A stretch of DNA of 12,578 bases from Diplocarpon mali (Eukaryota > Ascomycota > Leotiomycetes > Helotiales > Drepanopezizaceae): assembly GCA_024741835.1 (NCBI GenBank), contig JAENRP010000602.1, positions 1 to 12,578 on the forward strand, in the 5' to 3' direction. Position numbers and translations under genes: made by a program. Below are positions 1-12,578 of this stretch, one piece after another. The notes beneath the pieces were generated by a model. It was not told the DNA's origin. It ran no database searches and worked only from the letters and a program-made list of their open reading frames with translations. Numbering within the stretch: the first letter of the stretch is position 1; each line of letters begins with the position of its first letter.

Positions 1-259
1 AATCTTTTATTTATTTTTAAAAAGGAAAATTCGGACCGTTTTATAGGATTTAATAAAAAAGGAAAGAAGTAGAGAAGTATAGTACTAGCTAATATTCGAA
101 CTATATATAAAAGCAAGGCTAATAAAATACAACTAGTAGATTGGGGAATCTCTGACGGCTCAAAGCCTAAAGGACTGGATAATTGGTTTGAATAAGACGA
201 GAAGCTTCGACCTTTAAAGCTAGGGTAGTAAATTCGATAAGTTTATTATAAGTAGATTT
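1..259 (+). other. Upstream part of the gypsy element, not resolved
   Basis: This stretch should hold the protease/RT linker or the start of pol. I could not match it to a protease: no D-S/T-G motif is visible. From about 233 the pol frame is readable. Between about 120 and 230 another frame (frame 3) reads more protein-like, with D-W-G, W-F-E and D-E-K-L-R-P-L, so a small indel or an old frameshift may lie near 230-260. This is weak evidence. Confidence 0.3.
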
Positions 260-1000
260 TCTAATAAACCTATCGGATATCGGCTAATAAAAGAACGTTT
301 CGATATGCTGAAAATTGGAAAAGACTTAATAGAGTAAGAATGCGAACTACTTTATAAAACCTTAATAAATCGAAAGGACGCCTTAGCTTTTGACTAGATA
401 AAACTTGGCCAGATTTGAGAAGAGGTCATACCTTATATTAAGATTAAGATAATACTTTATAAAGCCTAGTAAGAGAAAACATTTAAGGTCCTTAAAGCTC
501 TTTAAGAAAAGGTAATCGAAATGTTAAAGGATAGGCTGAAGTAAGGTATTCTCGAGTTCTGTAATAGCCTTTATAAGAATAAATGGTTCTTAATTGCTAA
601 GAAAGAGAAAGGAACTTATAGATTAATAATAGCAATAGTAGAGATGAACCGAGTAACTATTAGGAACGCTAATATTCCTCCGAATATGGATAAGTTCTTA
701 AATGAATTCGTAAGATTAACCTATAGCTCTCTTATTAACTTCTTCTTTAGATATAACCAATTTATTCTTAATATTAAATCAAGAGATATAATAGCAATTC
801 AAACCCCTCTTAAGCTACTTCAGATGATAAGATTACTTTAAAAGGCTATAAATTCGATTACTTAATTTGTTTAAGTAATCTATAAGATACTAATAGATTA
901 TATACTTAATATTACGCTCCTTTATATAAATGATATAAGAGTAAAAGGATCAAGATTATTTTATAATTATAAAGAAGTTCTCCTTAGTATACGGTGATTT
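260..1000 (+). pseudogene. Gypsy reverse transcriptase domain, inactivated
   Basis: The RNA-dependent DNA polymerase part of the gypsy pol. Readable landmarks are K-P-I-G-Y-R (266-283), a K-x-L-I-E linker (320-334), the entry segment K-N-K-W-F-L-I-A-K-K-E-K-G-T-Y-R-L-I (about 578-628), M-N-R-V-T-I-R (644-664), the L-I-N-F-F block standing where gypsy enzymes have L-I-D-F-F-S-G-Y, and F/I-Q-T-P-L-x-L-L. The catalytic Y/F-x-D-D box is at 923-934 and reads Y-I-N-D, so its first Asp is lost by a G-to-A change. The Gln of L-P-Q-G is TAA at 839. The only stretch here open for 65 codons, 644-841, is just a gap between RIP stops. The enzyme cannot be functional. Confidence 0.88.
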
Positions 1001-1369
1001 ATAATAGAATACATTTAAAACCTGGATTAGGTACTTATACGATTCGAAAGGGTAAGAGCAACAGTCGGTCTAAAGTTATAATACTATCTTCTATTAATAG
1101 AAATTATTAGTTTTATTACTAATTCTAATAGCCGAAGTCCTTAAAGGGCTAAAGTACTTAAAATCGATAAATAGAAGAGGTATAATAATGTAGTAGAAGC
1201 TCGCGCGTTTATTAGTATTATAGTATACTATCGCATTTAAATTAAGGATTTCGCTAAAAAGGCAGTACCTATTTACTCCTTATTTTGAAAAGGGGCTGAG
1301 TTTTAATAAGAGGAACCTTAAATAGAGGCTATAAAACAACTGAAGCAAGCATTGCTTAAGGCGCTATAT

Positions 1370-1790
1370 CTGATTAAAATAGACTATAGAGCCGACGCTA
1401 GGCTAATAATACTAATAGTTGATATAAGTTTAATTAAATAGAATGCTATCCTTTAATAAGCTAATAGCTAATAGAAAAGACATTTAGCTTACTTTAAAAG
1501 TAGTCTTTAGAATCTAGCAAAGATAAAGTATAATACTATTAAATAAGAATATAAAGGAGCTTTAAAAGCAATGAAAAAGATAAGAAGCGACCTTTATAGC
1601 ACTTACTTTATCTTTAAAACTAATACTAAAGTGCTAGTAGAATAATTGAATAAAGCTATAAGCGACTTACCTAAAGCCTTACTAATGAAATGGATTGCTT
1701 AAATAAGACTAATGGACTTTAAAGTCAAATATATTTCAAAAATGAAAAACACTACTATAGATAGCCTTTTAAAAAGAACTCGCCTCTACC
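1370..1790 (+). pseudogene. Gypsy RNase H domain, inactivated
   Basis: Would have degraded the RNA strand of the RNA:DNA hybrid during reverse transcription. It follows RT in the same frame. The first catalytic Asp survives at 1421 (I-V-D-I-S, family form V-D-A-S), followed by TAG where the family has the Trp of G-W-G-A. The catalytic Glu survives at 1547 (E-Y-K-G-A-L-K-A, family form E-C-R/K-G). The third Asp position, in T-D-A-x-V-L, is now Asn (about 1619-1636, T-N-T-K-V-L). The C-terminal landmark T-x-D-x-L-L-K-R-T-R is at about 1753-1785, where the family has T-A-D-G-L-S-R-R. Several TAA/TAG interrupt it. Confidence 0.82.
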
Positions 1791-1881
1791 CCTTTGATTT
1801 AATTAAAGAAGATAAAATAGATATTAATAAGTAGGTAAAGAACGAAGTTAGTTATCTATTAATATATTACCTTAAAGGGAC

Positions 1882-1910
1882 TCGACTCCTGGTCCTAGCC
1901 CGCGAGTCAA
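1882..1910. repeat. Palindromic repeat copy 1 (inside gypsy pol)
   Basis: GACTC at 1884-1888 pairs with GAGTC at 1904-1908 around a GGTCCTAGCC core. It sits between the RNase H and integrase domains. Here the host frame reads through the repeat one base out of phase with copies 2-7 and gives R-L-L-V-L-A-R-E-S, still without a stop. The half-site GACTC also occurs directly before it, at 1879-1883. It is a GC-rich island in strongly AT-rich sequence. Confidence 0.75.
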
Positions 1911-2041
1911 ATAAAAGAATTTTATTACCTAACTACTTAAGTAACTTTAAAGAAATCGCGAAATTTTTAGTTATACTTAGATAACTAAAGATAGTTACTC
2001 TTAAGGATTTTCAGAAATTCAAAGCTAAAGCTCTAATTTAT

Positions 2042-3200
2042 CTAGTATAAGGAAAACGATTATTTAAAAGAAGTAATAACTTATACCTTATATAACTCTG
2101 CTTAAATAATAAAAAACTAAAGGCTAAGGCTATCTAGGATATTTATAAGGAAACTGGCTATTAAGGAGCTAAGTCTACTTACTACTAACTCTTAAGGAAA
2201 TTCTTTTAAAAGGGTTCTTTTAAGGACTGTAAAGCTTTTGTAAAAAGTTGTATCCCTTATTAAAAACGAAAACCTAATTATAAAGAGAATCTCCTATTCC
2301 TAACTTAGCTATTAGGCCTTTTTTATAAAGTCAGTCTTAATATTATATAAGTACTAATAATTAAAAATAGGATTATATATTTTATTTTAGTAAAGGAAGA
2401 CCTATTAAGATGGCTTAAAGGACGACCTTTAAAATCTGCTAACTTTAAATCTATTATAAAGTTCCTTTAGGAAGACGTAGTCTATTGCTATAGACTTTTT
2501 AGCAGACTAACTATTAATAAGGGCCTTGAAAATAAAGGAGTAGTTAAAGCTTTTTTATAAAAATATAGTATTAAATAGGTTCAAATCTTAGCGTATAACT
2601 TAAAAGCTAATAAAGTAGTAGAGCGAGGATATTGCGATATTTTTAATAGGCTATCTAAAGTTACTTATAAAGGATTTAAGAATTAGATAAAATACTTTTA
2701 TAAAATACTCTTTGCTTATCGAATGATAATCTATAAACCAATTAGAGTTATACTATTTTTCCTTATTTATAATAGAAAGGCATAGCTTCCTTTTAAATCC
2801 CGATAGCCTATTTAGAGATTGTTCGACTATAATCAAATTTAGAACTATTCCGATTTACTTATAATAAGATGCTAACAACTTAAGCTTTAAGATATAGATA
2901 TAAAGGAAATTATTCTATAAGAGAAACGATATTAGGAAAAAGCTAAGGAAGCATAGGCTGCTTTTAAAGTACTTAAAACGCACCCTATTTGAAAAGATGA
3001 TCTTATTTTAATTTATAATATTATAAGAAGTATTAATATATTAATAGATACTAAACTTAACTATTAATAGCTTAGTCTATTTAAGGTTAAGTTTAAGTAG
3101 AAAGAAAAGGGATACTATTCTCTTTAGGAATTTAATAAAGTTAATATTAAAGGAACCTTTATAGCTAACTAATTGAAGTACTTTTATTAATGCGATTAGA
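2042..3200 (+). pseudogene. Gypsy integrase, inactivated
   Basis: Would have joined the element's DNA ends to the host chromosome. The frame is the same as RT. G-K-R-L-F-K-R-S-N (about 2051-2077) precedes the HHCC zinc region, whose two His positions are now Tyr (K-E-T-G-Y) and whose last Cys is Tyr (C-I-P-Y). The core carries N-K-G-L-E-N-K-G at 2516-2539, where active family members have D-G-G-P-E-N, so a catalytic Asp is lost. The third acidic residue, Glu, survives in V-V-E-R-G-Y at 2615-2632, where the family has V-E-R-G-H. A C-terminal region with K-E-K-G-Y-Y-S-L and G-T-F-I-A-N-x-L-K-Y-F follows (about 3100-3185). Every loss I checked fits C-to-T or G-to-A. Confidence 0.85.
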
Positions 3201-3424
3201 CCTTATTCCCTTTAGAAGACGAATTAGAAATTGATATAACCTCCGAATCTTCTATAAGAACCGATAGCAATATAAGCAATTTTAAACCCTTAGATGAAAA
3301 CTAAGATTTTTCCAACTTAACCTATAAGCCGGTCTTATAAGTAAAGAATATTAAAATACTTAACTAATTGCAACCTTAAGTTATTATTCTTAAAATATCT
3401 AAAGAACGCAAATAGGAATACTAA

Positions 3425-3736
3425 ACGATTTCCTAGCCTATTAATTATCCTACTTTCCTTTAATCCTTATTTTTATATTTTCAGCAGGGTCGCCTCCTTT
3501 ATTATTTAAGATATAGATCTTTTAAGATCACTTTAAATTCTTACTTACTTTGACTTATTTTGCATTTTTGATATTAGCCTTTAATTATAGCATTCCTATT
3601 ACTTTCCTTAAATAATAAATAAAAAGTCCAATTTCCTTAATATATATATAGTAAACCTATTATAGCTTATATACCTTTTTAATTCTTATACCCTATTAAA
3701 CTTTTTTATTTATACTCCCTATCTTTTATAAGTAAT
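3425..3736. other. Spacer between gypsy pol and ORF A; possible 3' LTR remnant
   Basis: AT-rich with alternating pyrimidine tracts and a TATATATATA run near 3641-3650. By position it could hold the gypsy 3' LTR or the ORF A promoter. I could not identify a polypurine tract, LTR ends or a second LTR copy in the window, so both remain guesses. No coding signal was seen. Confidence 0.35.
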
Positions 3737-5965
3737 ATGCCTTTAAAGAATTTACAAATGGTTTTATCTATTGCAATAAAGGATAAATAAGCATTAGTTA
3801 TAAACTTCTCTTAAGATAGTAGAGCTATTGCATTATTAGAGAACTTTAAATCGACTTATATAGCCTTAAGAGATATAAAGTAATAAAAACTCCTTTTAGC
3901 TTATGCGAATGCTATTAATAACCTTTTAACCTAAGTAGCCCTTAGAATTCTCTAATTTAACAACTCCTTAACTAAAGAATTAAGATTAAAGGGAATCTCT
4001 AAAGAGGAATTCTTAGCTAATATAGATTAATATATAACCTTAGCCGATACTTTCAAAATAGATTAAGATAAAAGAGAAGAATCTATTTAATAATTAGATA
4101 ATTTAGCTACTAATAAGAGAGGACTCTTATTTCATTTGCGCTTTTTAATAAATATTAATTCTAATAATAGAAGATAAGTATTATTAAAAATTCTTAAGGA
4201 AAATACTCCTATTATTAAAGCTATTTAGATTCTCAATTTCTTTATTATTTAAGAAGGAGTAGTAAAATTTTAAAGCAATCGAATTCGCAATCGCAGATTT
4301 ATAGGCCTATCTAATGCAGTACTTATAGTAGCTAATAAGGCTATAAAAAGATCAAATTAAGCTATAGATATTACCCTACCTAATAGTATTATTATTAATA
4401 TGCTAAGGCTTTGCGCTTTTACTTATAGTTTGCTTATTTTAAAAGAGAATTAGACTCCTATAATAGGGTTTAGATAAAATTTCTTTAATAATAAAGAAGG
4501 GAATTAGTTATTTATAGTTAAGCTTACTTTAAAATTCGCTTCTTAACTTAAAGATATAATAAGTGCTAAACTATATAATTTAACTTATAGTCTTAGATTA
4601 AGAGTTAGAAATAAGAATTTTAAAACTAGACCTAACTTGCCTTTTATTAAAATAATTCTAAAAACCGCTACTAAATAAACTGCCTAAACGCTTAGCGTAG
4701 TCTCTTTAGAATTTTCAGAATCTTTAAAAGACTCTCCTTTAATTAAACGACCTATTTTAGCTCAACCTTTAAAAAGGATAGATCGTTCGATAGCTACTTT
4801 AGCTAATTTACAATTTAAAACTAAAGGATTATGCGCTCGCTTAGACTCCTTCCTTAATAACTTAAAGGAGCTAGTTCTTAACTTCTTTATATTTATATAT
4901 AACTATTTTAAAAACAATAATATAAGGAAAGACCTTATTCCTACTACTTTAAAGATAATTAAAAGAGCTATTAAATAGATTTAATAGCTTATTTTAAATA
5001 AGTTCGCCTTTATAAATATTATTTAATTCTTTAATAATTATAAAAGTTAAGAACTTAGTCTCTTAGATACTAAGCGAGACTATTTTATCTTATAAAAAAG
5101 AGAATGCAAAGAGGAATCTATTAATTAGGATATTTATAATTATAGCAATATGCCTTAATCGGTCATTTTTAACCTTAAGCTTAAAGAATAATATAATATT
5201 TAAGTGTCCTTTATAATAAAGACTTACTTTTAATAGTATCTTTTTAGCGTAGGAATCGAAGGGAGAAGACTTTGCGACCTTTATAATTGCTCTCTTTCAG
5301 TTTACTATAGTCTTAATTATAAAGGATTTAATATTAATAAAACTATTAAATACCTTAAACTTCTCTATATAATAGAAGATATTGATCTTTTTCTAATCTA
5401 CCTTAATAATTAGTTCTTTATCTCTTTAAGGATATGCAAATCTAACCTTTTAATAATAGAGGCATCTTTAAGTGCTATAAAATTTAAGGCTAATCCTAAA
5501 GCCTTAAAGGCGTTAGAGCCGATTGAATGGAATAATTCTTTCTTTTCAATATTATTAAGTAATAAATAATAAGAGGAAATAGAGAAAGAAGGGTCAATTG
5601 TAATACTTAAACCCTTCGGATACCGCTTCCTAACCGACAATTTTACTACTAATAATAGTACTTTTATAAGTATATTCCTCTCTATTATAAGATAAGAAGT
5701 AGAAATATACCTTTATCACTTCTACCCTATAGATAACGTAACCTCTATACCTTTTTATTTTCTTTATAATATAATATTTAGCCTTACTTAATAAGTCCTT
5801 TGGATATATTATAGACTTTACCTCTTAATTATAATAGTAAAAAGTAGAAGAGCCTATTAGCTTATGGCCTACCCTAAACCTTCCTAATTGATTAGCCTTA
5901 GTTTTTATAATTAAGTCGTTTTAATAAAGAGAGATATAAGTATTATTAATAAAGAAATTCCGATT

Positions 5966-5994
5966 TTTACTTATAGTCCTAGCCTATGAGTCAA
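5966..5994. repeat. Palindromic repeat copy 2 (in ORF A)
   Basis: The right half TATGAGTCAA is clean; the left half TTTACTTATA is decayed. The core is GTCCTAGCC. It begins on a codon boundary of ORF A and reads F-T-Y-S-P-S-L-stop-V-N, the same phase as copies 3-7. The stop here is TGA, which would derive from CGA rather than from CAA. Confidence 0.7.
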
Positions 5995-6850
5995 TTTTAT
6001 TAAAAAGTAAGTCTTAGATTATTAGATCTTATTAATCAGATAAAGGCCAGCTTCTAAAAGCCTTAATAGGTAGGTCGGCTCTTAATCAAATATAAAACTC
6101 ACTCTATCTATAAAGAAGATAAGTCGATAGACTTCTTAAGCACTTAGCTTAAAATCTTAACTAGCTTATATAATTGTAAAAATAAAGTAAAAAGAGATCT
6201 TATAGCCTATTATTAATAATAGTAATCCTATTATAATAATAATAAAATAAGGGCACTTTTTTAAAATGCGCTTAAATAAACTTTATAGAATTAGAGGCTT
6301 TATAGCCTTTTATAATAATTATATAGCTATTTGCAATAAGAATACCTTAGAAAATAAGACTCAAATCTCCGATCTTATCTTTTCAATCTTTACTTTAAAG
6401 TAACCTCTAGTGCCTTAATAGATTAATATAAGTAGAACTACTGCACCTTTTAAGGTAGCTTTTTATCTTAAGAACTGCGGTAGCCTCTTTAAAGCTATTA
6501 TTAGTCGGCGCTCTTAGACGGATCCTTCTATTATAACTAAAGTATAAGAGTTATTCCTTTTTAATAAAGACAAATTAAAAATCCACCTTATAAAATATAA
6601 TTAAAAACTCTTTAATGCCCTTATTAAGGCCTAGACAAATGTTATAAATACTAAGTCGCTTCTTTATAAACTTAAGTCTTAGGAATAGCGCGATAAAGTA
6701 AATACTATCTAAGAGCCTAATATACTAATTGATAAAAGTATTATTATAAGAAAATTCGGAAAAGAAATAAATTAAGACGCTAGTATAGTATTAGATCCTG
6801 ATTTAGGAACTAATCTCCTATTTTTACCCTTAAGTTTAGAAACGCCAAGA

Positions 6851-6879
6851 CTGACTCGCAAGCCCGGCCCGCGAGTGAG
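6851..6879. repeat. Palindromic repeat copy 3 (in ORF A)
   Basis: The best preserved and most GC-rich copy. GACTCGC (6853-6859) pairs with GCGAGT (6871-6876) around AAGCCCGGCCC. In the ORF A frame it gives L-T-R-K-P-G-P-R-V-R with no stop. It retains CpG sites, in contrast to the AT-rich flanks. Confidence 0.85.
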
Positions 6880-7129
6880 GTTAGACTCAGCTGGCTTAAG
6901 CCTATAAGATAGTTCAGATAAACCTCGATCACTAAATCTAAGGGTATTAATAGAAGATCCTTTAAGAGAAGTCCTTAAAGCTAAGAAATCGCTAAGAAAT
7001 AAGAACTAATACAAGAGAAGAAGACTCCGAAGTGATAATAGAATTAACAATTAAGTCGACTCGATCTAGAGAATTATAAGCTATCTCCTCTTTAAAAACC
7101 ATTTGAAGAGATTGCAAATTAGATATTGA

Positions 7130-7692
7130 ATTTTTTTTTAAGATTATCTACTTTCTATATACTTACACCTCTTTATTCTTAACCTATTATTCTATTCTAT
7201 ATATATTCTTTATTTACTTTGCTCTTTATATGATTTATTCTTTGATTATTCCCTTTATATGCAACTTTCTAACGCTTACCTTTGAAATATCGTCCTTACC
7301 TTTGATAATGGTCATTTACTAATTATAAGTCCTTATATGCGTCATACCCCACTTTTATTCCTACTTCCAGCCTTTTTATACCTACTTTTTCTTTATGCAC
7401 TAGTACGATTCTATCTTTATAAATAAACCTCTCCTTATACTATAATCATACTTTTTTTTTACCTTTTCTATAACCCTACTAAACCCTAGTACTAATAATA
7501 CCACTACTACTATCTTCTGTTATCAATTCTTTCTTAGTATAAGCTTACCGTCTTATTAATCTGCTTTAAATAAGCTTCTACAAGTTCTATTATCCTATCC
7601 CTAATAAATAATTTATTATAGCACTACTAAGCTTAAGTAAAAAGGCCATACTTAAGAAAAATATATTAATTATTACCTTAGGCAGCCAGTCA
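7130..7692. other. T-rich spacer between ORF A and ORF B
   Basis: 563 bases without a coding signal. On the + strand it is dominated by T and pyrimidine runs: T9 at 7131-7139 directly after the ORF A stop, and another T run near 7450-7459. This fits a terminator of ORF A followed by a fungal-type pyrimidine-rich promoter of ORF B, but no specific element can be named. The last bases before the ORF B start (C-C-T-T-A-G-G-C-A-G near 7676-7685) resemble a splice acceptor; no donor was confirmed. Confidence 0.4.
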
Positions 7693-8502
7693 ATGAATAC
7701 CGCTAGTAATAAACTAATGCTAAAGGGTAGCTTTTCATAGGATAGAAAAGCTCTAAGATCATTAGAAGATGTTATAACTACTTATAAAACGTTAGGTGAA
7801 ACGGAGTAATAAGTATTCTTGAATTTGTCTATTGAAGTACTAAACTATAGAATTTCTACTATTGAAGAAGGATTTTTAGGGTTTGATGATTTTCTTAAGA
7901 AAGAGCTTAAGATTAAGGGAATCGATTAGGAGAAGTTTCTATAAGAATATCAGAGGTATGCTAATTCAATTGATTTATTTCAGAAGAATCGAGATAAGAA
8001 AAATGAGTATATGAAAAGACTGATACAGTTTACAAATAGAATATATAAAACGCTCTTTTAAAGCCACTTTATAAATAATATTATAGCTAATAATGCTCTG
8101 CAGGGACTTAGCAAGATTTTTGAGATATACTAACCTATAGCAAGAGCGATATAGGTATTAAATCATTTTATTATATAAGAAGGAATGAAAAAGCTATAAG
8201 GAAATAATATCAGAAGTAGGAAATTTATAAGGTTCTTGAGTACTATTATATACTCTACTATTCAGACTATAAAAGACGATCCCTTATAGTATGATAATTT
8301 TGCACTCCTTAATTAGACCATTTTAAACACCCTCAGCCTATAATAGTTATAATATAGTCTACTTATAGTAAGGGAGAAGATAGTCTATCTAGCTAAGTAT
8401 ATTATAAACTACTTCGATAATAAGACAGAAAGATAGGAGTTTATTATACCTGCCGCTTAGAAAATGCTACTACCCTTAGCAGATTCAACTGATAAGCCAA
8501 AT

Positions 8503-8531
8503 TTGACTCATAGGCCCGGCCTATAAGTGGA
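8503..8531. repeat. Palindromic repeat copy 4 (in ORF B)
   Basis: The half-site TTGACTCATA pairs imperfectly with TATAAGTGGA around a GGCCCGGCC core. It begins on a codon boundary and reads L-T-H-R-P-G-L-stop-V-E. The TAA replaces the CGA or CAA of better copies. Confidence 0.85.
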
Positions 8532-8679
8532 AGCGCTATATGATAAAGATGCCCTTGAGTATAAGTTGCCTATAATACCTTATATATAAATAATAGACTA
8601 CCTCGACCGCCAATCAGCCGAGTTAGACAACTTTGATTCCTTATCTCTTGAAATCCTCCGAATACCTATAGTGATAAAA

Positions 8680-8708
8680 TTGACTTGCGAGCCTGGCCTA
8701 CGGGTTAA
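8680..8708. repeat. Palindromic repeat copy 5 (in ORF B)
   Basis: TTGACTTGCG opposite TACGGGTTAA around AGCCTGGCC. In the ORF B frame it reads L-T-C-E-P-G-L-R-V-N and is fully open. It lies only 148 bases after the end of copy 4. Confidence 0.85.
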
Positions 8709-9906
8709 TATATATAATATTATTAACTCAGATAGTGATTTGATAGATAAAGAGAATAACCCTATTACTAATATATTAGAAGTTTTTAATAAAACTAAGA
8801 AGGATATATTCGATATTATATAGACTTTGCCTAAAGACTTGCAAAGGTTTGTTTTGAAATTTTACAAGTCTATAATAAAGCGTTTGAAAAAGGAAGACTA
8901 AGAAGTTTTATTAGCATAGGAAGAGATAGCAAGAGCTATTAAACAAATTATAAAGCTTCGAGAAGATGGATTTTCCGCTAATAACATTATGCAGTTTTTC
9001 ATTAAGTATAAAAAGCTAAAGGGTGATTATTATATTCTTAAAGAAAAATCAGACAATAGTATAACAACTATCTCTATAGAGTGCTATAAAGTCCCCTTTA
9101 ATATTAAGATGATACTATAGCATGGCGATAGATTTAAGATTATAGTGACATTAGAAATGAAGATACGACTAGGCAGATTTGTGGTAGGAATTTCTGAAGA
9201 TACTAATAATGAAAAATTTTGTACTCTTTATAAAAGATAATATGCGCAGTACTATGGGTTGGCATTAATAGGCTTTAATAATAAAGATATATCATCTAAT
9301 ATCTATAAATTTTATATAGCTCTAAACTTAAAATTGTTCTTACTGCATCTTAGAAATTATGCTATTATAGCTACTAGTAATAGAATAGCGAACTAAGTTA
9401 AAAAGGATATATCGCTAGGCTTTTCTAAGTTTAGAGTAGCACCTGAAGCCCTTAAATTGTTTTATAATATCGCCTGGACCTCGGCCTAATACAACGCTAT
9501 ACTAACTAATAATAGCTTAATATCGCTTTATAGCAAAGGCTTCTTGAATATGCCTAAGTTGCTTAGCTATGCCTTTTTAGGCACTATGCGTACGTATGGT
9601 TATAGTAATCGTAGAAAGAATTCATTTTTGATATTAGTATAAGAGGAGCTAAAAATGTACCGATACTATTTCCGGACCTTAGATAAGAAGCTAAGCCCCC
9701 CCTTTGCCTTCCTTTATAATATGACTTATAGCTTGATATAGTAGACCTTAAGAATATACTATAGTCTGTATCTTAGTGCTCTATTGACTTATTATAATTC
9801 TTTATATAAGCTAGTAGCGTATCTTAAGCCTATATAGTTTATAGGCATTAACTACTATTTGCGAATTGTTTCTACTAAAATTAACGCTAACTCGAGATTC
9901 GTAAGG

Positions 9907-9935
9907 TTGACTCCTAGGCCTAGCTCGTAGGTCAA
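9907..9935. repeat. Palindromic repeat copy 6 (in ORF B)
   Basis: TTGACTCCTA opposite CGTAGGTCAA around GGCCTAGCT. In frame it reads L-T-P-R-P-S-S-stop-V-N. The outer seven-base arms, TTGACTC and AGGTCAA, are nearly complementary. Confidence 0.85.
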
Positions 9936-10728
9936 TTCTCCTAATAGTAGAACTATTGACTATTATATAATTCCTACTACTAAACAATTGACTAAGGAAT
10001 TTGCTATATAGGAAAAGTCTTATAAGTCATTTATACTTATATCTTATCGCCTTAAAAACTCTTAATGAATCTTATTAAACTTAGCATAAAGCGCAGCTTA
10101 ATAAAAAGAATTAAATACTAAGGATAGAACAATTCTAAAGGAGTATATCTTTAATAAGACTACTCTATTCTTTATATTTATAAGATAAGGCACTTTTATT
10201 AACCTAGATTCTGATAGAGAGCCTGGGAAGGGTGGTTTTCTTACTATTAGTAATAACTATATAGAAGTTGTTAATAATAATACGCTTAAGAATAGAGCTG
10301 ATTTGGAAGATTTCCTTATCGACTCTATTAATATGAAAAAGCCTTAATTATTAAGATAGGGTATAGTCTATGAATCTTTTGCAAGATTCTAAGCAATAAT
10401 CGAAATGACAAAAGGTAGTCTGTTATTAGAAGCCCTTATAGGCAGAAGATTATAGAATAATCTATTAATAGTAATAACTATAAAAGATTTATTTATAAAA
10501 GATATATCTTAGCTAATAGTATATCTAAAGAAGTATAAATAAGAACTTTTTAAAGATTTTACTAGTACTTAGAAGCTAGTTTAATAACTGGAGCTATAGT
10601 TATATAGCGATAAGTCTTAGATAAAGACTAAAGATATAGAAGATAATATTAAGGCTGATAATATAATTAATAAGACGATTCTGTTTAAGAAGTATAGCAC
10701 TAAGAAACCCTATGTAAAGACACCTGAT

Positions 10729-10757
10729 ATAACTCCTAGGCCTGGCTTGCAACTTGA
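10729..10757. repeat. Palindromic repeat copy 7 (in ORF B)
   Basis: The left half ATAACTCCTA and the GGCCTGGCT core are clear; the right half (TGCAACTTGA) is decayed. In frame it reads I-T-P-R-P-G-L-Q-L-D. It sits at the edge of the low-complexity C-terminal tail of ORF B. Confidence 0.7.
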
Positions 10758-11143
10758 TTTAGCAAAAGGTAAGGCTAAGGAAGTAGTATCTGTAGAATCT
10801 CTTGCCTCTCCTTCCTCTATTACCGACAATTCCCTTAAGGATAATAACGATAATGATAATAATGATGCTATTATATAAGTCTCTCTTCCTATTAGTAGAA
10901 GCCGCTAAAGCATACTAGCATTTGCCCGAACTACTAAAGCTCTAGTTATACTAAGACCTGTCTTATCAGATACTAATAGCAATACTATAAGAAGAAGTGG
11001 TCGTTCGGCAAAGAGAGTATTATCTAGTAATAGTTCTTCCTATCCTTTAAAGAGAACTAAGGAAAACTGATACCTAGGTTAGTTCTATTTTAATTGTTTT
11101 TGCGATTCTATAGTTTGTTTGTTTATTTTGCTGGTTTTGTTTT

Positions 11144-11172
11144 CTAACTCCTAGGCCTGGCCTATAGGTAAA
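11144..11172. repeat. Palindromic repeat copy 8 (downstream of ORF B)
   Basis: AACTCCTA (11146-11153), a GGCCTGGCC core and TATAGGTAAA. It lies 73 bases after the ORF B stop, so the repeat is not confined to reading frames. Confidence 0.75.
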
Positions 11173-11180
11173 AAGCGTAT

Positions 11181-11201
11181 AAAAAAAAAAAAAAAAAAAA
11201 A
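11181..11201. repeat. Homopolymer A21 tract
   Basis: Twenty-one uninterrupted A residues follow nine bases after repeat copy 8 and are followed at once by a pyrimidine tract. It may be a 3' tail left by retroposition, a slippage-expanded microsatellite, or part of the boundary with the copia fragment. Confidence 0.9.
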
Positions 11202-11204
11202 TTC

Positions 11205-11665
11205 TTCTTTTTTTCTTTTACCTTTAATAATAATATAGCCCTAGTTTAGGCCTTTTAATATATTAGTTTTCTTACACTTAGGGTTTGCTAGTAATTGATA
11301 TGCTATTGCCTTAACCTATATTATTTTGTATTCTTTACTAATAGTAGTAAGGGCTACTACTTTTATTATTTAGGATATATATAGAGACCTAAGATAGATA
11401 GGTCTTATAATAAATACTATATAATCGGCGTAAGACGGTAGGAGGATAAAAGGGCTATCTTCTATATATAGAGATAGCGCGCGTTGCTATAAGTACTAAA
11501 TATACCCTATACTTGGGACTTATTCCTAATATCTTGTCCAAGAGAGCCCGCTTGTGGTGCTTCCTCCTCTTGTTTTAGGTCTTCCCTTAGGCCTATTCTT
11601 GTGTTGTCCCCCTTCTGTTTTATACTAAGAACTATCGCAAAAGCTATAAGCAAAAGGCAAGATTA
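11205..11665 (-). mobile_element. Degenerate Ty1/copia pol fragment, reverse orientation (left arm of inverted repeat)
   Basis: Read on the - strand, this fragment is homologous to the right-hand copia copy (12140-12530). Shared perfect blocks are AGAGATAGCGCG (11470-11481 against 12319-12330), AGAGAGCCCGCTT (11541-11553 against 12250-12262) and TAGGCCTATTCT (11588-11599 against 12202-12213). Both copies can encode a similar peptide: V-V-A-L-T-T-I-S-K-E-Y-K here (11360 down to 11325) and V-A-A-L-A-T-I-N-K-E-Y-K in the right copy. By position it corresponds to the part of copia pol after the RT palm, towards RNase H; that part is inferred from the neighbouring RT rather than from its own motifs. 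No catalytic residues were identified. The left end near 11205 is uncertain. Confidence 0.6.
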
Positions 11666-11679
11666 CTATTCTTAAGCGC

Positions 11680-12578
11680 CCTTTTTAGCAATTTCGCCTA
11701 AAGGAGTACTAAGGGCCAATGAATTAGGGAGTATTTATGCCGATAAATCAAAATGACCTTATAGTAAAAGGCAAGAGGATCTTCAAATCGAGAATAGCTA
11801 ATAAGATAAAGGGGAAAGAAATAGATCACCTATTTAAGAACTCACGCCTAATTATATAGGCTTAAAACAATACTAGTAAGAAGGAGGAAGGTATAATTAC
11901 GCAATTTCCAACTATTTAATAAGTAAGCTAACGCCTTTTAGTATTATTTTTAGTATTAATTTAAGAATACTTTAAAGAATAGGGTAAAAAGGGCATTCTC
12001 GGCCTATAGGATATTATATAAGCATATACTTAGGCAGCTTTAAAGCTACTATGCGATATATTTATATTTCCTTTATAAGATATCGCTAAGCTATTCCCTA
12101 TAGGTATAGTCTTTTAAGTAGTACTACTACTCTATAGCATTCCCGAATTAGGAAATCACTAGTTTAGCACTTACTATAAGAGGGAGTAGGAACAACACCT
12201 GAGAATAGGCCTACGTAAAGACCAAAGACAAAGAGGGAGGAAGTACTATAAGCGGGCTCTCTAAAGACAGGAACTAGGACAATTCACTAGTTAAGGGTAG
12301 AATAGGTAATTAGCATTACGCGCTATCTCTAAGTATAATAGTAGTCCTATATATACCCCTTTCTTAGTCCTTATTTAACCATATGATTTATATTATAAAA
12401 TCCTCTACTTTTAAGTCTTTATATATGCCTTAATTAACTTAAGTAGCGGCCCTTGCTACTATTAATAAAGAATATAAGACTCTTATAGGTTGAGAATACT
12501 AATTCCTATTTGTAAAAATAATAAGTGCAAGTAAGGTTAGTACTTAAAGTTATAAAGGTAAGGAGAGGAGAGAGGGTT
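11680..12578 (+). mobile_element. Degenerate Ty1/copia reverse transcriptase fragment (runs off window)
   Basis: A broken copia-type pol. The frame containing 11737 reads through TAA/TAG as a recognisable fungal copia RT. It has G-V-F (11728-11736), K-R-I-F-K-S-R-I-A (about 11773-11800, family form T-R-V-F-G-S-R-F/W), N-S-R-L-I-I (11839-11856, family K-S-R-L-V-V-Q-A), T-Q-F-P-T-I with V-S-x-R-L (about 11899-11940, family T-Q-S-P-T-I-Q-R-V-S-Q-R-L), D-I-I-x-A-Y-T (12010-12030, family R-D-I-x-Q-A-Y) and S-I-P-E-L-G-N-H (12136-12159, family G-I-P-E-A-G-N-H-W, with TAG for Trp next). After about 12200 the readable frame shifts (frame 2), consistent with a one- or two-base indel relative to the left copy. 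The first catalytic Asp (12010) survives; the second catalytic box is not seen. No LTR is in the window. Confidence 0.75.

Follow-up and report, generated by a model that had tools for sequence, protein, structure and literature searches.

A GC-rich palindrome of 29 bp was found to recur at non-homologous sites of several families of long terminal repeat (LTR) retrotransposons in the genome of the fungus Diplocarpon mali. The starting point was a contig of 12,578 nt (JAENRP010000602.1, positions 1 to 12,578, assembly GCA_024741835.1), the whole of which is called the window here. The window is a relic of the repeat-induced point mutation (RIP) type, in which two paralogous proteins, A and B, lie downstream of a gypsy pol. 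The palindrome occurs in two coding phases and in non-coding copies, and it forms in-frame arrays in coding sequence; its peptide motif is absent from the other listed copia relatives. The explanation favoured here, considered about equally likely to be right or wrong, is that a palindromic module was copied between co-resident retrotransposons, kept where it was harmless in frame and then amplified with them.

The palindrome in the window and in the host genome

The consensus, TTGACTCNNNGGCCNGGCCNNNGAGTCAA (29 letters, 22 fixed positions), is its own reverse complement, so that both strands give identical places. In the host genome (49.37 Mb), 904 places were matched with at most three mismatches to TTGACTCNNNGGCCNGGCCNNNGAGTCAA, against 0 for the reversed control pattern. 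No place in the genome matched perfectly at all 22 fixed positions. Within the window, 10 hits were obtained at up to eight mismatches, whereas 200 permutations of the consensus averaged 0.26 hits and never exceeded 3. An initial annotation made from the window sequence had listed eight copies, and 8/8 were recovered in place, with 3 to 7 mismatches at the 22 fixed positions. Two weaker copies that it had missed, at 3317 and 4580, are clearer in a less mutated copy of the element (L046). The description of the copies as palindromes holds for their overall symmetry; individual units are imperfect, with 7 to 13 Watson–Crick pairs of 14 in 21 representative units.

The initial annotation was upheld in part: in a fungus, a single short palindromic unit of DNA is found repeatedly in unrelated proteins, at coding positions that are not homologous, and mostly in one phase. 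Copies are neither few, given the genome count, nor limited to one protein family. Exact pattern scans gave 0 matches in prokaryote genomes and 0 in viral contigs. No description of the repeat was found in the literature, judged by titles and opening abstracts.

An origin by chance, or as a by-product of RIP or AT-richness, is practically out of the question. The window is RIP-like (GC 0.285; CpA and TpG depleted, TpA in excess, TA/AT 1.41) and GC islands are conspicuous in it, but such an origin is contradicted by the count for the reversed pattern, by copies that lie where mutation is lighter (GC 0.38 to 0.48) and by the presence of the motif in intact proteins.

Retrotransposon families carrying the palindrome

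Flanks were read for the 15 best genome matches and for 20 matches hand-picked mainly for unusual variants. One was a duplicate, which left 34 distinct places, a sample biased towards the tops of lists and unusual variants. Each of the 34 belonged to a retroelement cluster, an assignment made by eye for five of them. They fell into nine flank clusters: copia-1 (clusters 2 and 24), gypsy (7), B (0, 1 and 4), A (9) and copia-2 (10, by eye, and 12). With 34/34 places of this biased sample in retroelement clusters, in-frame insertion as a genome-wide habit, which had been proposed initially, is not supported.

In 251.6 kb of partly selected sequence, including the flanks of 30 B copies, 234 palindromes with at most six mismatches were found in 25 flank clusters. 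These were merged (tandem units and split clusters joined, arrays counted once) to 17 locations, of which 14 are in three LTR-retrotransposon families (gypsy-A-B, copia-1 and copia-2) and 3 in contexts without a name. The gypsy-A-B element has two locations in gypsy pol, three in A, four in B and one downstream of B. The two locations of copia-1 are in the gag–protease stretch and in the integrase–reverse transcriptase (RT) stretch. This family was identified by Pfam (RVT_2 and others in protein P0001, SH3_retrovirus in locus L001), and one D. coronariae protein among 1495 candidates was matched by the copia region of L001. In the copies read, copia-1 arrays consist of 2 to 4 units, in multiples of three.

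The first copia-2 location, in the stretch before the integrase, was assigned by eye (L036, L047 to L051; no Pfam match in L036). The second is a three-unit array behind the end of RT and RNase H (L014, L055, L056; RVT_2 in L014). Both copia-2 types are present on contig C41, 3.55 kb apart on one strand, as expected for parts of one element. Spacings in the non-coding copia-2 array (L014, L055, L056) are 61 and 66 bases, and the units are followed by a common GTCAyrTGGTCTT-like stretch.

One unusual variant is nearly the same (28/29 bases) at L017:5806-5834 and at L046:2556-2584, the counterpart of 4580 in the window. The flanks of the two are unlike, and a direct copy event is possible.

Reading phase

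In phase 0 the unit reads LTxxPGPRVN, the peptide of most coding sites. Stop counts in the flanks favoured this phase at 10 clusters (0, 1, 2, 3, 4, 6, 10 and 16, and the single copies 8 and 24). They were undecided for clusters 9 and 15, whose placement in phase 0 comes from the sequences of L046 and L012. For the gypsy copy at 1882, phase 1 was favoured: its 1328 codons contained 56 stops, compared with 153 and 190 for the two alternative phases. The second base of this unit is C in 4/8 copies, which turns the TGA of phase 1 into CGA, or into CAA with the next base changed; the remaining 4/8 read TGA or TAA. Two of the eight gypsy copies share 25/29 bases with the form at 6851 in A, yet encode a different peptide. 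When A/B counterparts and arrays were counted once, about nine independent contexts were in phase 0 and none in the third, open phase. The corresponding probability for nine phase-0 contexts is two to the minus nine, or 0.002, independence being a matter of judgement.

The repeat had been annotated as lying in frame inside coding sequence. This is correct for A and B, where the six copies noted initially all start on a codon boundary (four relative to the B start at 7693; 5966 and 6851 relative to the A start at 3737). It is not correct for 1882, in gypsy pol and in the other phase, or for 11144, past the B stop. A and B themselves, taken initially as open frames, are both relics: a six-frame reading of the window gave no open frame of at least 100 aa. 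Among the 21 representative units, four are non-coding and lie behind a stop; for the copia-2 array, the upstream stop was deduced from a TAG common to three copies.

Spacing between close neighbours was a multiple of three in 37/40 pairs (34/34 outside the copia-2 3' array, 3/6 inside), and all three exceptions are in that non-coding array. The first two B palindromes (8503 and 8680) are 177 bases apart in the window, in L017 to L021 and in L024, and 186 bases apart elsewhere, an in-frame difference of 9 bases.

Conservation stops beyond the 29 bp, with information of at most 0.6 bits outside the unit. In 16 phase-0 units, three of which have an unproven coding context, third codon positions are the freest, with 0.02 bits at nucleotides 15 and 27, though others have as much as 0.8 to 1.7 bits. 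The threonine codon is ACT at 20/21 units. In the same 21 units, 229/294 arm positions can be paired (G–T included), against 112 for shuffled composition.

Protein-level selection on the peptide LTxxPGPRVN, which would have spread or converged in retrotransposon linkers with the DNA palindrome as an incidental feature, is a very unlikely explanation. It agrees with the strong bias to a single phase, with the freedom of third codon positions and with the recurrence of T[RP]xPGxxV-like peptides in the intact proteins P0001 to P0005. Short-peptide searches in the other two phases gave 0 and 3 matches, numbers that favour neither side. Gypsy pol, however, has the same DNA in another phase, further copies stand behind stop codons, and the arm pairing is demanded by no peptide; the near-constant ACT codon also tells against selection on the peptide. 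The phase-1 gypsy site and the non-coding copies indicate that the sites descend from a common DNA ancestor, on which coding acted as a filter afterwards. A peptide-only origin as the sole cause is ruled out by the same two observations.

Symmetry and constraint

Conservation of the unit is symmetric (ACTC..CC.GG..GAGT), with a correlation of 0.62 between the information of the two arms. No compensatory changes between the arms were found in the 21 units (229 paired positions, against 229.9 after re-dealing the right arms). RNA folding of seven copies against shuffles gave two z values of -3.0 and -2.7 (energies lower than in almost every shuffle), one of -2.3 and four of -1.3 or weaker, and a Rfam scan of the window matched no family. 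Without covariation of the arms, the palindrome is unlikely to be maintained as a hairpin, and a maintained RNA hairpin was discarded as a candidate. The symmetry is compatible with an ancestral sequence that was itself symmetric, or with a dimeric DNA site.

Constraint was measured in an alignment of 31 copies of the B region, 30 of which had not been chosen by their palindrome (L046 had). Transversion rates were under the local median at 6/6 sites; against all windows, 5/6 sites were in the lowest 7 to 13 percent and 8680 was at the median. At third codon positions of B, the transversion rate was 0.0036 inside palindromes vs 0.0626 outside (p 0.0016 with random windows, 0.0002 with nearby ones). 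At codon positions 1 and 2 of B, the difference between inside and outside was not significant. The signal became weaker when only four-fold sites in B palindromes were used: permutation gave p of about 0.047, and columns with transversions numbered 1/23 inside vs 86/365 outside (p 0.036). These values are suggestive of constraint on the synonymous sites of the B palindromes.

The gypsy site at 1882 showed the opposite of B, with transversion rates of 0.033 inside and 0.002 to 0.005 in the flanks over 8 copies, rates that are biased because clusters were gathered by resemblance to the consensus; the alignment of 31 B-region copies, which repeats the test with copies mostly not chosen in this way, gave a weaker result. 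The eight copies (window 1882-1910, L004, L012, L037, L060, L061, L063 and L065) have similar flanks. Six of them had been fetched for their palindrome, and a search of the collected loci with the flanks only returned the same 8. The inner half-sites vary as blocks (GCGAGCC, GCGGTCC, CTGGTCC, CTTAGTC), as if the palindrome or one of its arms had been replaced.

A cis-acting site under selection, for example a dimeric DNA-binding site or a packaging or dimerisation signal, is quite unlikely. The TGACTC of the arms is the core of Gcn4/CPC1-type bZIP factor sites, and both the symmetric conservation and the low transversion rates in B agree with such a site. It is opposed by arms that do not covary, hence no maintained hairpin, by the scattering of up to ten copies per element through coding sequence, and by the gypsy palindrome, which is more variable in transversions than its flanks.

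Comparison of sites with and without the palindrome

The proteins A and B are about 30 percent identical. In their alignment, the palindrome at 4580 corresponds to that at 8503 and the one at 5966 to that at 9907; 8680 is without a counterpart, and the alignment does not bring 6851 and 10729 together. Judged from it, two of the sites appear to predate the duplication that gave A and B. The B copies had been described initially as insertions at sites empty in A. The site at 8680 does lack a counterpart in A; 8503 and 9907 are matched in A, so the proof of mobility by A/B comparison fails, and insertions specific to B were dropped as such a proof.

The motif T[RP]xPGx[RG]V was present in 1/120 listed copia proteins (of 2490 matches), the Diplocarpon one. 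Another protein, P0072, was matched by a looser motif only and was judged unrelated. The gag–protease linker of the Diplocarpon copia protein, at 111 residues, is longer than those of its two closest relatives (81 and 84), a difference that two inserted units would account for; among the remaining relatives, one has a linker of 133 residues and the others range from 68 to 90. The integrase–RT linker has 98 residues vs 108 and 102, with no net gain. Over 8 proteins, the two linkers range from 68 to 133 and from 86 to 138 residues.

Origin of the copies

According to the preferred explanation, a 29-bp GC-rich palindromic module would have been copied to many non-homologous places of several LTR-retrotransposon families within one Diplocarpon genome, colonising two copia families as well as a gypsy element that has two additional proteins. 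Copies would have been retained in tolerant protein stretches, nearly always in phase LTxxPGPRVN, or downstream of a stop codon, since the element would be disrupted by any other outcome; we infer that the places kept are the tolerant ones. Some copies may then have grown into in-frame tandem arrays. The elements would have been amplified afterwards, and RIP would then have decayed them. Every location that could be named is in an element that replicates through RNA, which suggests reverse transcription or gene conversion as the copying step. Arrival would have been by copying between co-resident retroelements and not through a dedicated transposase. The most likely route would be either reverse transcription, in which the template is switched at the palindrome from one co-packaged RNA to another, or gene conversion.

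Several observations weigh against this explanation. Direct evidence of template switching was not obtained, and the contexts L017, L018 and L021 were not identified by Pfam. No copy in a host gene was found, in a small and biased sample in which host genes were not surveyed as such. No true empty site was found, so that it is not possible to demonstrate a clean insertion whose length is a fixed multiple of three. Target duplications of 3, 4 or 5 bases were seen at 0/21 units and of 2 bases at 5/21 (3.3 expected), in a test limited by old, RIP-mutated flanks and by tandem units. The wide variation of copia linkers means that a net gain cannot be claimed. At four-fold sites, the comparison with local controls (1/23 vs 20/100 nearby, p 0.12) is a weak test. 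Finally, phase-0 units are generally better conserved at codon positions 1 and 2 than at position 3, which indicates that selection on the peptide also acts.

A mobile palindrome resembling the Rickettsia palindromic elements (RPE) or miniature inverted-repeat transposable elements (MITE), moved in trans by a recombinase of host or viral type, is unlikely. Such a palindrome would insert anywhere, and retroelements would stand out as abundant and tolerant. Consistent with it are the presence of one DNA unit at 17 locations, in two phases and in non-coding copies, the near-identity of 4580 in A and L017:5806 in unlike flanks, and the three contexts that Pfam left without identification. It is disfavoured by the lack of target duplication, by conservation that ends at 29 bp and by 0/34 places outside retroelement clusters in the biased sample read. 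A bolder form of the preferred explanation, in which the unit is a geneless retrotransposon passenger of 29 nt that moves from gypsy to copia via their reverse transcription, accumulates in frame in linkers and is spread by its carrier, is somewhat unlikely.

If copying between co-resident retrotransposons is the correct explanation, the unit would be a eukaryotic counterpart of in-frame palindromes, and very small DNA units could spread between unrelated mobile elements and add protein linkers. A recognisable 29-mer at known sites could also serve as a marker for recombination between co-resident retrotransposons, datable against RIP.

Comparison with known systems

In-frame mobile palindromes are known from Rickettsia. 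Like RPE, the Diplocarpon unit is a short palindromic repeat that lies in frame within unrelated proteins and is read as a conserved peptide. The shared stretch is 29 bp here, unlike the length of about 150 bp given for RPE in an excerpt of PMC10969869. The targets also differ, being eukaryotic retrotransposons here and bacterial metabolic genes in RPE, and a single protein here may have several copies and tandem arrays. RPE are inserted in unrelated cellular genes that have uninterrupted orthologues; for the Diplocarpon unit, copia relatives free of the motif exist, and the places read, 34/34, belong to retroelement clusters. The likeness to Rickettsia elements drawn initially is therefore apt for the in-frame fusion, not for length and targets.

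MITEs and the bacterial repetitive extragenic palindromic (REP) sequences and REP doublets forming hairpins (REPIN) are tiny palindromes with hundreds of copies and no coding capacity for their mover. The Diplocarpon unit is likewise tiny and palindromic, has hundreds of copies and codes for no mover. Unlike MITEs, it shows no target duplication and no separable terminal repeats; unlike REP and REPIN, which are extragenic, it is mostly inside coding sequence. GC clusters and double-hairpin elements of fungal mitochondrial DNA are GC-rich palindromes in AT-rich DNA, sometimes inside genes, whereas the Diplocarpon unit is a single defined 29-bp unit in RIP-mutated LTR retrotransposons. Tandem repeat linkers of the variable number tandem repeat (VNTR) kind occur in retrotransposon proteins. 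The copia-1 arrays resemble them in unit number and in their multiples of three, but the unit is common to unrelated families and is also present in another phase and in non-coding DNA.

Organisation of the window

The features of the window are given in Table 1. Over 9.2 kb, the less mutated copy L046 (contig C12, GC 0.387) aligns at 81 percent with positions 2029-11192 of the window, which shows that gypsy pol, protein A and protein B are one repeated unit.

Table 1. Coordinates of the retroelement relics and palindromes in the window
Feature	Position	Strand	Remarks
Gypsy-type pol relic (RNase H, integrase zinc finger, weakly integrase core)	1..3430, right end approximate	+	From L012 domains and frame
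Palindrome in gypsy pol between RNase H and integrase zinc finger, other codon phase	1882..1910	+	RLASPACESN in L012
Decayed palindrome, gypsy C-terminal part	3317..3345	+	8 mismatches; 5 at L046:1289; LTYKPVLRVKN in L012
Protein A relic, about 1130 codons, no Pfam family	3737..7129	+	Ends by reading the sequence
Decayed palindrome in A, counterpart of B 8503	4580..4608	+	9 mismatches; 5 at L046:2556
Palindrome in A, counterpart of B 9907	5966..5994	+	FTRGPGPRVN in L046
Palindrome near the A C-terminus	6851..6879	+	LTREPGPRVR in L046
Protein B relic, 1125 codons and stop, no Pfam family	7693..11070	+	Ends by reading the sequence
Palindrome in B	8503..8531	+	LTRRPGPRVE in L046
Palindrome in B, no counterpart in A	8680..8708	+	MTCEPGLRVN in L046
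Palindrome in B	9907..9935	+	LTPGPGLRVN in L046
Palindrome in B	10729..10757	+	TTPGPGPQLD in L046
Palindrome downstream of the B stop, non-coding, no clear frame	11144..11172	+	

In L012, a less mutated gypsy copy, Pfam matched RT_RNaseH (5.7e-13) and Integrase_H2C2 (1.5e-13); the integrase core of gypsy pol was matched only below the curated cut-off (E 0.01). Pfam scans of proteins A and B matched no family. The relatives of protein B found among 7995 scored candidates are four intact proteins of D. coronariae, P0002 to P0005. Assemblies of this species are of 50 to 54 Mb with a GC content of 44 to 45 percent, according to an excerpt of PMC11527701. The genome has at least 40 copies of protein B, and 40/40 scored copies carry 31 to 61 stops, nearly all TAG or TAA; A and B are relics, as are these 40 copies. 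The structure of protein B was predicted from 4 sequences with a mean pLDDT of 28.9, so that the palindrome peptides cannot be mapped on it. Downstream of B, positions 11326-11422 and 12381-12477 of the window form a 97-base inverted repeat that is 72 percent complementary.

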